Shown here in pieces: positions 58,650 through 63,636 of a stretch of 64,000 nucleotides of DNA. A program made the translations under genes and the position numbers. The stretch is from an uncultured Bacteroidales bacterium. Its GTDB lineage: Bacteria > Bacteroidota > Bacteroidia > Bacteroidales > P3. Position 1 is the first letter of the stretch. Every line of letters starts with the position of its first letter. Location of the stretch: NCBI GenBank assembly GCA_905233475.1, contig CAJOEN010000012.1, forward strand, positions 62,001-126,000, in the 5' to 3' direction. The notes under the pieces were generated by a model, which was given only the letters and a program-made list of their open reading frames with translations, made no database searches and was not told where the DNA came from.

Positions 58650-58985
58650 TTACATATAAAATATAAATGAGATAATAAGTGCAATGGTAGCAGGTAGGAA
58701 AAAAAATTGGATCCCTAATTTTAAAGCATAGCCAAGTCTATTGTCCAAGAGATCAACATTTCCAGAAATCCAAAATAATCGGGGCGGAAATTCCTCGGCC
58801 CACCCGGTAAAACCTATGAGGACACCGATAAAAGCACATACCCCTCCAAGGATGTATGTTGGTTTGCTGTTCAACACAACAACGTCGTGCCAGTCGGAAT
58901 TATTTAGTACAAGTACGATGTACACAATCCCGGCAATCATTACTAACGGCCCAATTATGCGCCAAATCCAAAGAAGAACTTTCAT
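58650..58985 (-). CDS. Small membrane protein of unknown function
   Basis: The 111-residue protein has three or four membrane helices: about 7-29 (WRIIGPLVMIAGIVYIVLVL), 42-62 (YILGGVCAFIGVLIGFTGWA) and 88-110. No family is recognised. It is the last gene of a minus-strand run in which gaps are 6-8 bp, so it is probably co-translated with the DUF4230 gene 8 bp upstream. Confidence 0.65.
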   Translation of the reverse strand: MKVLLWIWRIIGPLVMIAGIVYIVLVLNNSDWHDVVVLNSKPTYILGGVCAFIGVLIGFTGWAEEFPPRLFWISGNVDLLDNRLGYALKLGIQFFFLPATIALIISFIFYM

Positions 58986-58993
58986 TATTTTTT

Positions 58994-59563
58994 CTATTGT
59001 TTTTGGTTTACAGTTATCTCCACATTATCGAAGCCGAATGATGAAAACATGGCGGTGAGGAGTTTTATGCCGTTTTCCTTGGCTGCAGTGAGTACGCCAT
59101 CGTTGACTGCGAGTTTGGCGATTTCCCCACGAGCCTTGTTTTTCAATTTTGTTGTCCGCTGATGCGACCATGAGCCACTTTCTGTTATTGTTTTGAAACC
59201 GGAAGGATTTACTATCGTATCAAGAATTTTGGCTGGTTGTAGGGTGATTTTAAGTGTGTCGCCTACACTCTCGGTTTCCATCTGCGAGAGGTCGAATCCA
59301 GCGCGTATCTGGCCGTTTGCGGTCATTACTATCTTGTTATATCCCAACAAAATGCCAGGCATTGAGTCCATTACCATAACTCCTTGGAAATAGTTTGCGG
59401 TGCAAAACTCCGATATTTTTTTCATCTCTTCTATAGACTGGCTTATGGAAACCATTTCCGTAGTGCTTTTTTTGAAGAATTTGGCATAGCATGCGTATCC
59501 GATTATTATTATTGCAATGGCACATGCTGCCAATATAACTTTTTTTACTATTCCTTTTGTCAT
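58994..59563 (-). CDS. DUF4230 family protein, membrane-anchored
   Basis: The 189-residue protein has one N-terminal membrane helix (about 7-26) and an external DUF4230 domain. The diagnostic part is GQIRAGFDLSQMETESVGDTLKITLQPAKILDTIV, followed by a helical tail (AAKENGIKLLTAMFSSFGFDNVEI). The family's function is unknown. It is 6 bp downstream of a second, lipid-anchored DUF4230 gene, so the two probably act together at the cell envelope. Confidence 0.8.
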   Translation of the reverse strand: MTKGIVKKVILAACAIAIIIIGYACYAKFFKKSTTEMVSISQSIEEMKKISEFCTANYFQGVMVMDSMPGILLGYNKIVMTANGQIRAGFDLSQMETESVGDTLKITLQPAKILDTIVNPSGFKTITESGSWSHQRTTKLKNKARGEIAKLAVNDGVLTAAKENGIKLLTAMFSSFGFDNVEITVNQKQ

Positions 59564-59569
59564 AATGCT

Positions 59570-60112
59570 TTAGTTTTCAAAGTTAATATTTATTGTGTTA
59601 TATCCGTTTTGGCGTAGCAGAACCTCAAAAAACGTTTTGGCGCTTTCCTTGGCTTCTTTCAAGATGCTGTTTCTGATGTCCTCGTCGCCTTTAATCTCCA
59701 CCTCGGCCGCCTGAAAGACATCCTCTCTTTCTTTTTCTGAGAAATTAGAACGCAAGGTTCCTATATCCGAAAAAATCTCCCTTATTTCGTCGGGAGTAAT
59801 ATTGTACGAGAAAATCTCCGGCTCCGGAAGTTCGATTGTGATTTTGTCGCCATCGGTGTTCACTTTCTCGCTGTTGAACTTATCCATGTCGATACCAGCT
59901 TTTACTGTAGCTTTGCACTCGTATATTTCCGTACGGTTGCCGAGCCATGAATAATCCTCGTCATTAAGGGCAAACACTTTGTTTATCTTGCCCTCTACGG
60001 TGCCGAGTTCGGCCGCTTGTTTGAGCTGCTTTTGAAAATCTGCGTCAGCATTGTTGCTGCTACAGGCAGCCAACAACAGCGGCAATGCCAAAATAAATGT
60101 TGTTTTTTTCAT
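59570..60112 (-). CDS. DUF4230 family lipoprotein
   Basis: The 180-residue protein has a lipoprotein signal (MKKTTFILALPLLLAAC). Its domain parallels that of the next gene: ATVKAGIDMDKFNSEKVNTDGDKITIELPEPEIFSYNI and a C-terminal helix ending in FFEVLLRQNGYNTININF. It is a divergent paralogue with a different membrane anchor. No enzymatic motif is visible. The two genes are separated by 6 bp. Confidence 0.8.
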   Translation of the reverse strand: MKKTTFILALPLLLAACSSNNADADFQKQLKQAAELGTVEGKINKVFALNDEDYSWLGNRTEIYECKATVKAGIDMDKFNSEKVNTDGDKITIELPEPEIFSYNITPDEIREIFSDIGTLRSNFSEKEREDVFQAAEVEIKGDEDIRNSILKEAKESAKTFFEVLLRQNGYNTININFEN

Positions 60113-60319: not shown

Positions 60320-61000
60320 CTACGTTCGCCGGCATTTATTATTATAATATTGTACAGCTCCGCCTTTCCCCACTATTGAGAATCCATTTCCGTTCACACC
60401 TCCAAAATGGTAGTAGTCAGGGTTGTACTTCATGCTCCCCAAACGTTGCCCTCGAATATCGAACGACCATACTTGACCTCTGCTGTCGGCAGTAACATAG
60501 AAATCTGAGCCCCACCCCTTAACTTCTCCGCCAAAACTTGGGCCGAACCTCAGAGTCTTGTTTCCTGGTCCTCTTTGGATTAGTAGTTCAACATTTGCAC
60601 TTCCTTTATTTCTAGCATTCATTATAAATTGCTCGTTGTCCATTTCCTTTTTCTTCGCTTCTTCTTTTGCGGCATTATCCTTTGAATTTGTTTTTTTGTC
60701 TCTTTTTTGAATGCTCTTTTGTTGGAGAGAAACATCGTGTCTGCTTGGATTGTGTTGTGTGCTGTGCCTATTGCTGACTTCTTTTCTTAACAGTGTTAGT
60801 TCCTCCAAATCCCTGATTTTCTTCTTATGTGTTCTGCGTGCAACAATAAATGTGACGATAGAGATAGCGACGGCTACAAATTCATGTAGCCAGTTTTTTT
60901 CTTCTGGCAAACAAATGACCATGATTACCCATGATCCGGCAAGTATTAAGCCTGCGACGAATACATCCAAAACAAAATAGAGTGTCTTTCTAACAACCAT
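60320..61000 (-). CDS. Membrane protein with basic linker and unknown C-terminal domain
   Basis: Starting at ATG 61000 (MVVRKTLYFVLDVF) rather than TTG 61021, the protein has 226 residues. Two N-terminal membrane helices (about 7-30 and 38-57) are followed by a very basic, low-complexity stretch (about 60-130, Lys/Asn/Gln/Ser). A compact Gly/Tyr-rich C-terminal domain follows (LRFGPSFGGEVKGWGSDFYV to GNGFSIVGKGGAVQYYN). No family is recognised. The 10-bp gap to the upstream gene implies one transcript. Confidence 0.65.
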   Translation of the reverse strand: MVVRKTLYFVLDVFVAGLILAGSWVIMVICLPEEKNWLHEFVAVAISIVTFIVARRTHKKKIRDLEELTLLRKEVSNRHSTQHNPSRHDVSLQQKSIQKRDKKTNSKDNAAKEEAKKKEMDNEQFIMNARNKGSANVELLIQRGPGNKTLRFGPSFGGEVKGWGSDFYVTADSRGQVWSFDIRGQRLGSMKYNPDYYHFGGVNGNGFSIVGKGGAVQYYNNKCRRT

Positions 61001-61010
61001 TGTATTTGTT

Positions 61011-61289
61011 TTATTTGCCAATATAAAGGCAGTTTTTTATTTTGTCTAATAAGGTATTGTACCAAGCATTCCCTGTATTACCCTTTTTTCGATATAGTAT
61101 GATAAAATTTATTAGGGCGATTAAAATGGACAAAGGCAGTAGAAATGAGTGTAGCAACGATATAATCAACCCACCTACAACCCCAACCACAACAGAAACA
61201 ACGATATAAGCCTTTATATCGGATTTATCTGGGTTGCTGTCGGTTTCTTTCCGCTCTCGTTTAGAGACTTCATTGCTTTTATTCAACAT
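61011..61289 (-). CDS. Small two-helix membrane protein, first gene of the repeat-box operon
   Basis: The start is taken at ATG 61289, about 15 bases after the predicted transcription start; a TTG at 61391 would lie upstream of the promoter. The 92-residue protein has a charged N terminus and a hydrophobic hairpin (about 25-67, AYIVVSVVVGVVGGLIISLL and SFLLPLSILIALINFIILY). No family is recognised. It leads the minus-strand run toward the DUF4230 genes and is preceded by the direct-repeat promoter. Confidence 0.6.
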   Translation of the reverse strand: MLNKSNEVSKRERKETDSNPDKSDIKAYIVVSVVVGVVGGLIISLLHSFLLPLSILIALINFIILYRKKGNTGNAWYNTLLDKIKNCLYIGK

Positions 61290-61310: not shown

Positions 61311-61358
61311 CAAAATTACTATAAACCTACCGCTCGTTTTAGGTTCTAATAAGGTTCT
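61311..61358 (-). promoter_or_regulatory. Promoter with two 11-bp direct repeats
   Basis: On the minus strand AGAACCTTATT and AGAACCTAAAA lie head to tail (61337-61358), followed after 18 bp by the -7 element TAATTTTG (61311-61318). No TTTG is present at -33, so the repeats take its place. The 11-bp period matches one DNA turn, as in PhoB/OmpR-type boxes. Confidence 0.65.
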
Positions 61359-61502
61359 AATCGTAAGGCGTTGGTATGATACGAGTTGCAAGGTCGTTGC
61401 GGGGTGGTTTCCCGCACAATCAAAATTTTTTTTGCCTGTTTATGACAAAAGAAATCAATTTTTTTTGAAGTTAGAGGAAAGTTTTTTTACATGGCTGTCC
61501 AC

Positions 61503-62939
61503 TCAATCCCGTCCGCCGATTTCCGCATCAATCGGTTGTTTTTGCCACAGTTCTCCGGTAAATGCTTGGCGCGAGATTTCGTTGTATTGTTCGCCAAGAG
61601 TTTGTCCATCCTTCTGCATTTTAATAAATTCGGGATTATTTAATATGTCTTCACCGCAATTGGAGGTCAGGTTACTGCTGTTGATGTAGGCAGTCATATC
61701 TCTATTGGCTTGTTGATAAGCAGGGTTGATTAGAACTCCCCACATTTTCACAAGCTCGTCGCTTGTCATGGGTGTCATTTTGGGGAAAATCTTTGTGTAT
61801 GCACTGTTTATGATTTCCTGTAAGAGTATTTGTTTTTTCATAAATGCCATGTCGGTGCATAGGTTGTTGTGGCTTTTTACAAAGTTCTGTAGTTCTTCCA
61901 CTGCATTGTCGCAGAGTCTCTGATATTCCCGCTTGGCGGCTTCGAGTTCCTCGTCGGAAATTATGACCGTTGCGGCTGGCGGTGCTGTCGTAATTTCAGG
62001 AGTGCTTACTGCTACAGGCGCCATTGCCGGAGGTATTTCGGTAGCCTCAACGACCTCGGGCAAAGGCACGGCGGCGGTGTCCTTCAGTATCTCGGCAGTG
62101 TCCACGGCGGTGTCCTTCTTTTCTATATTATTAACAATAGGTATCACTACTGCGGCGACGAGTAGTCCCAACGCCACAGCCTTTGTTATAATGCGCAGAT
62201 TGTCGGTGCGTTGCATGGCTTTGGCCACGGCCTGTGCGTCGGCGTAACGCTTGTCGGGGTTGTGTTGTGTGCAGCGACGCACTATGTGACGGTATCTGTT
62301 GGTAAACAGCTGTTTCAGCATCAGTCCGAAAGCATAGATGTCGGTGCGACAGTCGATGGGGGTGCCGTCGGTCATCTGCTCGGGTGCGGCGTAAGCTTTG
62401 GTGTAGGCGGGCTCTTTTAGTATGGCGTAGTCGTCGGTGTCGGACAGACCGAAATCGATGAGTTTCACGTTGTCGCCGTTGCGGGTTATCAGTATGTTGG
62501 CGGGCTTCAGGTCGCGGTGGACAATCTGTAGCGAGTGGAAATAGCGCATGGCGTCGAGCAACTGCATGGCCACTTTGCGACGGAGGGTGGCCGAGGGCTT
62601 CTCTTCGAGGAATTTGTCGAGGGTGCGCCCGTCGATGTACTCCATAACAAGGCAAGGGCCGGCAACGTTGTCATAGTAGGAGCCGTACATGTGCACAATG
62701 TTGGGGTGGTCCATCCGCACTGCCGTGTTGAGTTCTTTTTCCAGCATGGCGATATAGGCGGGGTCGGCGGAGTGCTGCGGTTGCAGACCTTTCAGCACAT
62801 GCCATTTGCCGTAGCGTTGGGCTTTGAACAGCCTGCAATAGCTTTTCGACGGCATCGGCGTGTGGTCGGTGAAATTGTGTGATACGCTGAAATCCAGCCT
62901 CTTGGCAAAACCCGATGTGCTTTGGTCCGTTTCTTCCAT
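61503..62939 (-). CDS. Eukaryotic-type serine/threonine protein kinase with membrane anchor
   Basis: The 478-residue protein has an N-terminal kinase domain: Lys50 (VLKGL), Glu69 for the salt bridge, the catalytic loop HRDLKPAN (141-148), DFG (162-164) and APEQ (185-188). The glycine-rich ATP loop is not recognisable, which is unusual. One membrane helix (about 252-270) is followed by a Thr/Pro/Ala-rich segment (275-330) and a helical exterior domain of about 140 residues (KREYQRLCDNAVEEL onward). It therefore looks like a receptor kinase sensing outside the inner membrane. It is flanked by the two direct-repeat promoters. Confidence 0.9.
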   Translation of the reverse strand: MEETDQSTSGFAKRLDFSVSHNFTDHTPMPSKSYCRLFKAQRYGKWHVLKGLQPQHSADPAYIAMLEKELNTAVRMDHPNIVHMYGSYYDNVAGPCLVMEYIDGRTLDKFLEEKPSATLRRKVAMQLLDAMRYFHSLQIVHRDLKPANILITRNGDNVKLIDFGLSDTDDYAILKEPAYTKAYAAPEQMTDGTPIDCRTDIYAFGLMLKQLFTNRYRHIVRRCTQHNPDKRYADAQAVAKAMQRTDNLRIITKAVALGLLVAAVVIPIVNNIEKKDTAVDTAEILKDTAAVPLPEVVEATEIPPAMAPVAVSTPEITTAPPAATVIISDEELEAAKREYQRLCDNAVEELQNFVKSHNNLCTDMAFMKKQILLQEIINSAYTKIFPKMTPMTSDELVKMWGVLINPAYQQANRDMTAYINSSNLTSNCGEDILNNPEFIKMQKDGQTLGEQYNEISRQAFTGELWQKQPIDAEIGGRD

Positions 62940-62943
62940 GGTG

Positions 62944-62951
62944 CAAAATTA
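62944..62951 (-). promoter_or_regulatory. Candidate -7 element directly before the kinase ATG
   Basis: TAATTTTG on the minus strand ends 4 bp before the ATG at 62939. Transcription would start at or within the first codon, implying a leaderless mRNA or a downstream true start (Met29). Confidence 0.45.
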
Positions 62952-62988
62952 CACTTTTTTTTGGGTAATTTACCGCAACAACATCAAA

Positions 62989-63036
62989 AGAACTTAATAA
63001 GAACCTAAAATTATATGGTATTTTTGGTTACCTTTG
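62989..63036 (+). promoter_or_regulatory. Promoter with two 11-bp direct repeats, divergent to the kinase
   Basis: AGAACTTAATA and AGAACCTAAAA (62989-63010) precede TACCTTTG (63029-63036) by 18 bp. Arrangement, spacing and 19 of 22 bases agree with the box at 61337-61358. The predicted start site lies about 21 bases before the ATG at 63064. Confidence 0.65.
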
Positions 63037-63063: not shown

Positions 63064-63636
63064 ATGGAACAGGAACATTTACAGAAACTTAAGACGTTGG
63101 TAGAGGAGTCGGCGATGCATCCGCTGAAAACCACCAAGGATTTCGAGGCGTTGCACTGGCAGATGCAGGAACGTGTGCGCGACACCCTGAGCATCAGCAC
63201 GTTGAAACGTATGTGGGGATATGTTGACGGCTACGACACCACCCGCGAAGATACCCTCGACCTGCTGTGCCGTTTTGTGGGCTATCCCGACTGGCACACT
63301 TTCGTCTCCGATTACTGCAATGTGGAGTCGGAGCAGACGTCGCACCGCATAGTTTCGTCCACCTTGTCCGCCGACGAGCTGAAAGTGTCGGAATATGTTG
63401 CCATAGAGTGGAATCCCAACCGCAGGCTGGTGCTGAGCCACAAGGGCAAAGGCGTTTTCGAGGTGATGTACGCCCAAAACTCCAAGATTACCCAGGGCGA
63501 CACATTACACTGCGACCGTTTTATCCTCAACCAGCCGCTGTATATCGACAACCTCGTCCACAACGGCATGCCCTCAGTGATGTTTGTGGTAGGCAAAAAG
63601 GGCGGCATTACCAAAGTGGAAAGGGTGAGGGAATGA
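63064..63636 (+). CDS. Small putative DNA-binding protein
   Basis: From ATG 63064 (MEQEHLQKLKTLVEES) the protein has 190 residues; a TTG at 63034 lies in the promoter. The N-terminal helical part contains ISTLKRMWGYVDGYDTTREDTLDLLCRFVGYPDWHTF, a pattern I recognise from many Bacteroidota proteins and which looks like a compact helical DNA-binding fold. The C-terminal part (about 100-190) is a small beta domain (AIEWNPNRRLVLSHKGKGVFEVM). It is divergent from the kinase and under a direct-repeat promoter. A regulatory role is inferred, not shown. Confidence 0.65.
   Translation: MEQEHLQKLKTLVEESAMHPLKTTKDFEALHWQMQERVRDTLSISTLKRMWGYVDGYDTTREDTLDLLCRFVGYPDWHTFVSDYCNVESEQTSHRIVSSTLSADELKVSEYVAIEWNPNRRLVLSHKGKGVFEVMYAQNSKITQGDTLHCDRFILNQPLYIDNLVHNGMPSVMFVVGKKGGITKVERVRE

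Follow-up and report, generated by a model that had tools for sequence, protein, structure and literature searches.

The window analysed here, a stretch of 64,000 nucleotides from a rumen-type Bacteroidales bacterium, contains a membrane-kinase gene flanked by two promoters that share the same paired DNA box. One promoter precedes a membrane-protein operon, termed here the target operon, and the other precedes a gene that is divergent from the kinase and whose product we propose as the regulator of the system. The features of the locus are listed below.

58650-58985, minus strand: membrane protein, 111 aa
58994-59563, minus strand: DUF4230 protein
59570-60112, minus strand: DUF4230 protein, lipoprotein-like
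60320..61000, minus strand: second target gene, membrane protein of 226 aa, or 233 aa from an upstream TTG (open reading frame, hydropathy)
61011..61289, minus strand: first target gene, 92 aa, two predicted transmembrane segments (open reading frame, hydropathy)
61318-61311, minus strand: -7 element of the target operon, TAATTTTG
61337-61358, minus strand: minus box, before the membrane-protein operon, AGAACCTTATTAGAACCTAAAA
61341..61347, minus strand: unit 2 of the minus box (AGAACCT), 29 bp before the -7 element
61352..61358, minus strand: unit 1 of the minus box (AGAACCT)
61503..62939, minus strand: Hanks-type Ser/Thr kinase, 478 aa, one transmembrane segment followed by about 200 aa (PF00069, E = 7.5e-35; hydropathy)
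62944..62951, minus strand: possible leaderless kinase promoter, TAATTTTG just before the start codon
62978..62984, plus strand: weaker third unit (ACAACAT), in the 11-bp register of the plus box and 11 bp further upstream
62989-63010, plus strand: plus box, before the regulator gene, AGAACTTAATAAGAACCTAAAA
62989..62995, plus strand: unit 1 of the plus box (AGAACTT)
63000..63006, plus strand: unit 2 of the plus box (AGAACCT), 29 bp before the -7 element
63029-63036, plus strand: -7 element of the regulator gene, TACCTTTG
63064..63636, plus strand: proposed regulator, 190 aa, no Pfam match (open reading frame, profile search, predicted structure)
63190..63213, plus strand: codons 43-50 of the regulator (SISTLKRM), predicted recognition helix (helix 3)
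63340..63342, plus strand: codon of linker Ser93, candidate phosphorylation site

Both 22-mers end 18 bp before a TAnnTTTG element, with the second unit starting exactly 29 bp before it. The original prediction of two 11-bp head-to-tail units per promoter was confirmed in position and spacing, as was the agreement of the two boxes at 19 of 22 positions. Neither promoter carries a TTTG at -33, again as predicted, although this absence is weak evidence by itself because attempts to identify the -33 element in Flavobacterium johnsoniae did not succeed (PMC7366714).

The boxes appear to be private to this locus. The observation that no further intergenic copy occurs in the window extends to the complete 2.3-Mb genome, where a pattern search with the 18-mer core at up to two mismatches returned these two sites only; at three mismatches the genome count equalled that of the reversed-pattern control. 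The random-like genome-wide occurrence for which such a scan had been proposed as a check was not seen at up to two mismatches. In 100 shuffles of the window, the 22-mer had no match at up to three mismatches, and a single one of the 78 TAnnTTTG sites in the window qualified under the strict box definition. Across 1.35 Mb of loci of the same family, 35 sites combined a lag of 10-11 bp between units with a distance of 28-29 bp to the -7 element, compared with 5 for lags of 13-14 bp. The analysis supports a regulatory role for the boxes, their restriction to the kinase locus and a single regulon centred on the kinase gene.

The kinase has intact HRD and DFG motifs in its translation and scores 130.6 bits against the PknB/PASTA kinase equivalog model, below the cut-off of 450. 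A Hanks-type kinase gene lies within 4 kb of the regulator gene at 96 of 108 homologous loci, namely 61 of 68 in the first set, where a few loci represent one region fetched from two collections and the arrangement is most often divergent, and 35 of 40 in the second set. The TAnnTTTG-type element a few bases before the kinase start recurs at L037, L039, L040, L119 and L123, which suggests that the kinase mRNA may be leaderless at these loci; the regulator's box is found approximately 35-37 bp away from these elements, on their opposite side. On the target side, where operon extents were judged by gene spacing only, the 207-bp gap before the genes at 58650..60112 (minus strand) contains no further TAnnTTTG, and these genes are probably the distal part of the target operon.

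The divergent gene beside the kinase is itself the proposed regulator gene, a point absent from the original prediction. Its product consists of an N-terminal helical domain (residues 1-92; five predicted helices, model pLDDT 84) and a C-terminal beta domain (residues 97-190), joined by a linker in which Ser93 is conserved in 66 of 67 aligned homologues. In a fold search with the N-terminal domain, the best match was the XRE-family structure 3f6w (Z 6.5, below 8; rmsd 3.1 over 72 residues), C.Esp1396I was matched at Z 6.1, and the leading rows were mostly lambda-repressor-like or POU domains. With Z below 8 and a Foldseek E of about 1 the match is moderate, and it is supportive, rather than proof, of a lambda-repressor/XRE-like fold for the modelled domain. 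The full-length model gave weak Sm-like and galectin matches to the C-terminal domain (best Z 4.7). At the sequence level, no lambda-repressor-like or other bacterial helix-turn-helix (HTH) model was matched when 44 members were compared with Pfam at E up to 0.1, and searches of Pfam, NCBIfam, PADLOC and PDB sequences found no relatives, while PHROGs gave scattered weak matches. XRE proteins usually bind palindromes as dimers, and direct repeats are unusual for the fold; the sites here are direct repeats with a period of 10-11 bp, and the palindromic operator that is usual, but not obligatory, for XRE proteins is absent. In other Bacteroidales families the N-terminal domain also occurs alone, in proteins of approximately 830 aa (reading frames spanning about 780-895 aa), so this putative DNA-binding domain is used outside the kinase module as well.

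Homologues of the regulator were found in the genus, the family and the order, and across Bacteroidales the same architecture recurs: a direct repeat with a period of 10-11 bp, whose second unit lies 28-29 bp before a -7 element, stands before the regulator gene, before an operon close to the kinase, or before both. The comparison of orthologous promoters that had been suggested as a check shows the two-site layout again. The orthologous locus L037, from a goat-reticulum Bacteroidales MAG matched to JAFSOU010000032.1, carries both copies as AGAACC boxes at 28 and 29 bp, one before the regulator orthologue and one after the kinase, the latter followed by small membrane and lipoprotein genes different from those in the window. 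L038, a paralogous locus of the genome to which the window belongs, carries a different box, AGACCTTATTTAGACCT, which its relatives L039 and L040 use too. This box occurs twice per locus, before the regulator and before the operon after the kinase, and at up to two mismatches it has exactly two sites in the window's genome. Since the orthologous and paralogous loci each have their own box at two sites, the box is private to each locus, and the recurrence of this two-site layout upholds the earlier suggestion of one regulon around the kinase. ATPase-like genes are inserted in the kinase module at L038:6521-7672 and L041:10402-11541, with the box kept.

The spacing was also recovered statistically. 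Among 40 dereplicated regulator promoters, self-similarity at lag 11 reached z = 8.5, compared with -1.1 to 4.7 at other lags. In a motif-free map of lag against distance, 10 of 44 dereplicated loci fell on the peak at lag 11 and distance 29, compared with a mean of 1.07 and at most 5 for other lags; for loci added later from other families of the order, the peak was at lag 10 and distances of 28-30. When unit letters were permuted and a copy of the locus's own box was sought 28-29 bp from another -7 element, the second copy near the kinase had a combined permutation p of about 1.6e-8 over 12 loci, some of them related. Boxes at target promoters keep the distance of 28-29 bp, except for 39 bp in two loci, whereas at the regulator's own promoter the distance varies (18, 26, 29 and 38 bp). 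Given the additional distances of 18, 26 and 38-39 bp, most, but not all, positions are one helical turn apart. Many distant regulator homologues have no recognisable box. At L100, two AGGACC-type boxes follow the kinase (L100:3790 and 4340, minus strand), each with its own -7 element, at distances of 28 and 29 bp; they may mark two target units in one locus.

The sequence of the box varies with residues 43-49 of the regulator's predicted recognition helix. SxSTLKR regulators are accompanied by AGAACC boxes, SxSTLER by AGAAAC or AGAAAT, GTTTLKR by TAGACC, GLTTVKR by CGGACC, GLNTLRR and SPTTLKR by AGGACC, and TDKTLKR or NDKTLRR by AGTACC; by class, SxS corresponds to AGAACC, GxT, GxN and SxT to AGGACC, xDK to AGTACC, and SxSTLER to AGAAAC. 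Under a two-residue rule, in which S or A at both positions 43 and 45 corresponds to A at base 3 of the box, 58 of 59 loci were concordant, with the rule refined post hoc after the second set, the boxes read by eye and not blind, and L043 and L101 left out for their mixed units. None of 5,000 tree simulations reached 58 concordant loci (maximum 51), while independent residue changes on well-supported branches numbered only 3, too few for a sign test. An earlier candidate, residue 43 alone as the specificity determinant, held for 38 of 39 loci in the first set but failed in the second, where base 3 is G in the boxes of 8 of the 9 SPT regulators. The remaining exception to the residue-base match is L203. 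Two family members, L203 and L204, stand in tandem on one contig, 7 kb apart, and the AGAACC box of L203 is a better match to the helix of the neighbour than to that of L203 itself, which may reflect cross-regulation. Taken as correlative evidence from sequences, the tracking of helix 3 by the box is strong.

The genomic comparisons establish, at the level of sequence, that the boxes exist with a fixed spacing and stay within the locus, that the regulator gene is linked to a kinase gene, and that box and helix 3 match. Most likely, an undescribed family of DNA-binding proteins, encoded next to such kinases, lands on the paired box, protein and box versions being matched to each other, and we consider it very likely that the product of 63064-63636 binds the box in the window. 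Regulator monomers would probably bind one per 11-bp unit, arranged head to tail along the same face of the DNA helix. As the second unit lies 28-29 bp from the -7 element, the box stands just upstream of the core promoter, within an activator's reach of RNA polymerase; both units of the target promoter are placed directly upstream of the would-be -33 element, and the bound protein would probably touch the polymerase and activate transcription, much like lambda cI at PRM. The box at the regulator's own promoter would mediate autoregulation, which is well supported. The transmembrane kinase would probably phosphorylate the regulator, with Ser93 in the linker as candidate site, although for control by phosphorylation we see the chances as even. 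A signal from the envelope could in this way pass through the kinase and the phosphorylated regulator to one local membrane-protein operon. Taken as a whole, this reading, in which a self-contained kinase-XRE-like signalling module activates one neighbouring operon while the regulator controls itself, is likely to be correct.

The original prediction placed an activator in the role of the -33 contact, and a box just upstream of a promoter without a -33 element fits an activator; from this position we infer activation, and favour it by some margin over repression. Many XRE proteins are repressors, and the same protein might bind the boxes to repress both promoters, with the kinase relieving repression; in the SVSTLER clade the autoregulatory boxes lie at 18 bp, one turn nearer the promoter, as a repressor would suit. 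The distance kept at the target promoters, upstream of a core promoter without a -33 element, suits an activator better, and repression at both promoters is possible but rather unlikely.

Being head-to-tail 11-bp repeats in a 7+4 layout, placed just upstream of -33, the boxes look like those of PhoB/OmpR, the type of regulator put forward in the original prediction, and they share with OmpR/PhoB regulons the 11-bp direct repeat upstream of a promoter without a -33 element. An OmpR-type gene followed by a histidine kinase gene does lie about 1.2 kb past the plus-strand gene, outside the window (L053:11835-12521, plus strand). However, homologues of this response regulator are absent from the 67 further box-family loci tested, many of which carry boxes; the box sequence tracks helix 3 of the kinase-linked protein instead; and paralogous loci in one genome have different boxes, each confined to its locus. 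As the OmpR-type gene is not common to the loci and the box follows another protein, this part of the prediction fails, and binding by an OmpR/PhoB-type response regulator is improbable. It is still less probable that AGAACC is the -35 element of a promoter for an ECF sigma factor, even though such elements often contain GAAC: the partner element is the housekeeping TAnnTTTG, which at 28-29 bp from the unit start is too far away, no ECF-type -10 element was found at 15-17 bp from GAAC, two units repeat at 10-11 bp, and the unit changes to AGGACC, AGTACC or TAGACC along with the linked regulator. Finally, that the copies, inverted around the kinase in the window, are recombinase sites for flipping the kinase segment is the least credible reading, given the fixed distance to the -7 element in nearly all loci, the differences between the window copies at 3 of 22 positions, and the two copies on one strand at L114.

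With the kinase-linked protein as the proposed binder, the module combines features of several known systems. Like lambda cI at PRM and C.Esp1396I, it has a predicted five-helix DNA-binding domain and putative autoregulation, and its site occupies the position, directly upstream of the core promoter, from which cI activates; unlike lambda-repressor-like/XRE regulators, it uses direct repeats of 10-11 bp in place of palindromes, and its regulator has a C-terminal beta domain, linkage to a Hanks-type kinase and no Pfam match. With PhoB/OmpR two-component systems it shares head-to-tail 11-bp units that would replace the -33 contact and the pairing of a membrane kinase with a regulator, but the kinase is a Ser/Thr rather than a histidine kinase, a receiver domain is lacking, and the boxes are private to each locus. 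Hanks-type kinases that phosphorylate transcription factors are known, as exemplified by PknH-EmbR. Such pairs likewise place a membrane Ser/Thr kinase gene beside a gene for a DNA-binding protein, whereas here the regulator has another fold, a locus-specific promoter code is conserved, and phosphorylation is putative. A literature search in open-licence papers found no description of this regulator family or module.

The cargo of the module differs among loci. At other loci it includes a PvuRts1I-like SRA nuclease with an ion channel, OmpA with TerB, and SPFH/GYF proteins, and elsewhere a KAP NTPase, MreB-like and Mrr-like proteins, PDDEXK nucleases and a UvrD helicase; several of these genes are of kinds common in defence loci. 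The restriction-type nucleases, KAP NTPase, TerB, SPFH and ion channel among them suggest inducible defence or envelope protection as the function.

To our knowledge, Bacteroidetes have few known transcription factors under Ser/Thr kinase control, and for promoters of the TAnnTTTG class few activators with defined sites have been described. The modules may represent a family of stand-alone Ser/Thr signalling systems in Bacteroidales, two-component-like in organization, each with a transmembrane Hanks-type kinase, an XRE-like regulator, a private phased direct repeat, a decodable helix and one cargo operon, a view that we hold as about equally likely to prove right or wrong. The family comprises dozens of regulator-box pairs. 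Within a single genome these appear to be orthogonal, and they come with a residue-to-base rule that can be tested. The signal of the kinase, the part played by the missing -33 contact and what the variable cargo operons do thereby become directly testable, and the family offers orthogonal promoters for Bacteroidales genetics.
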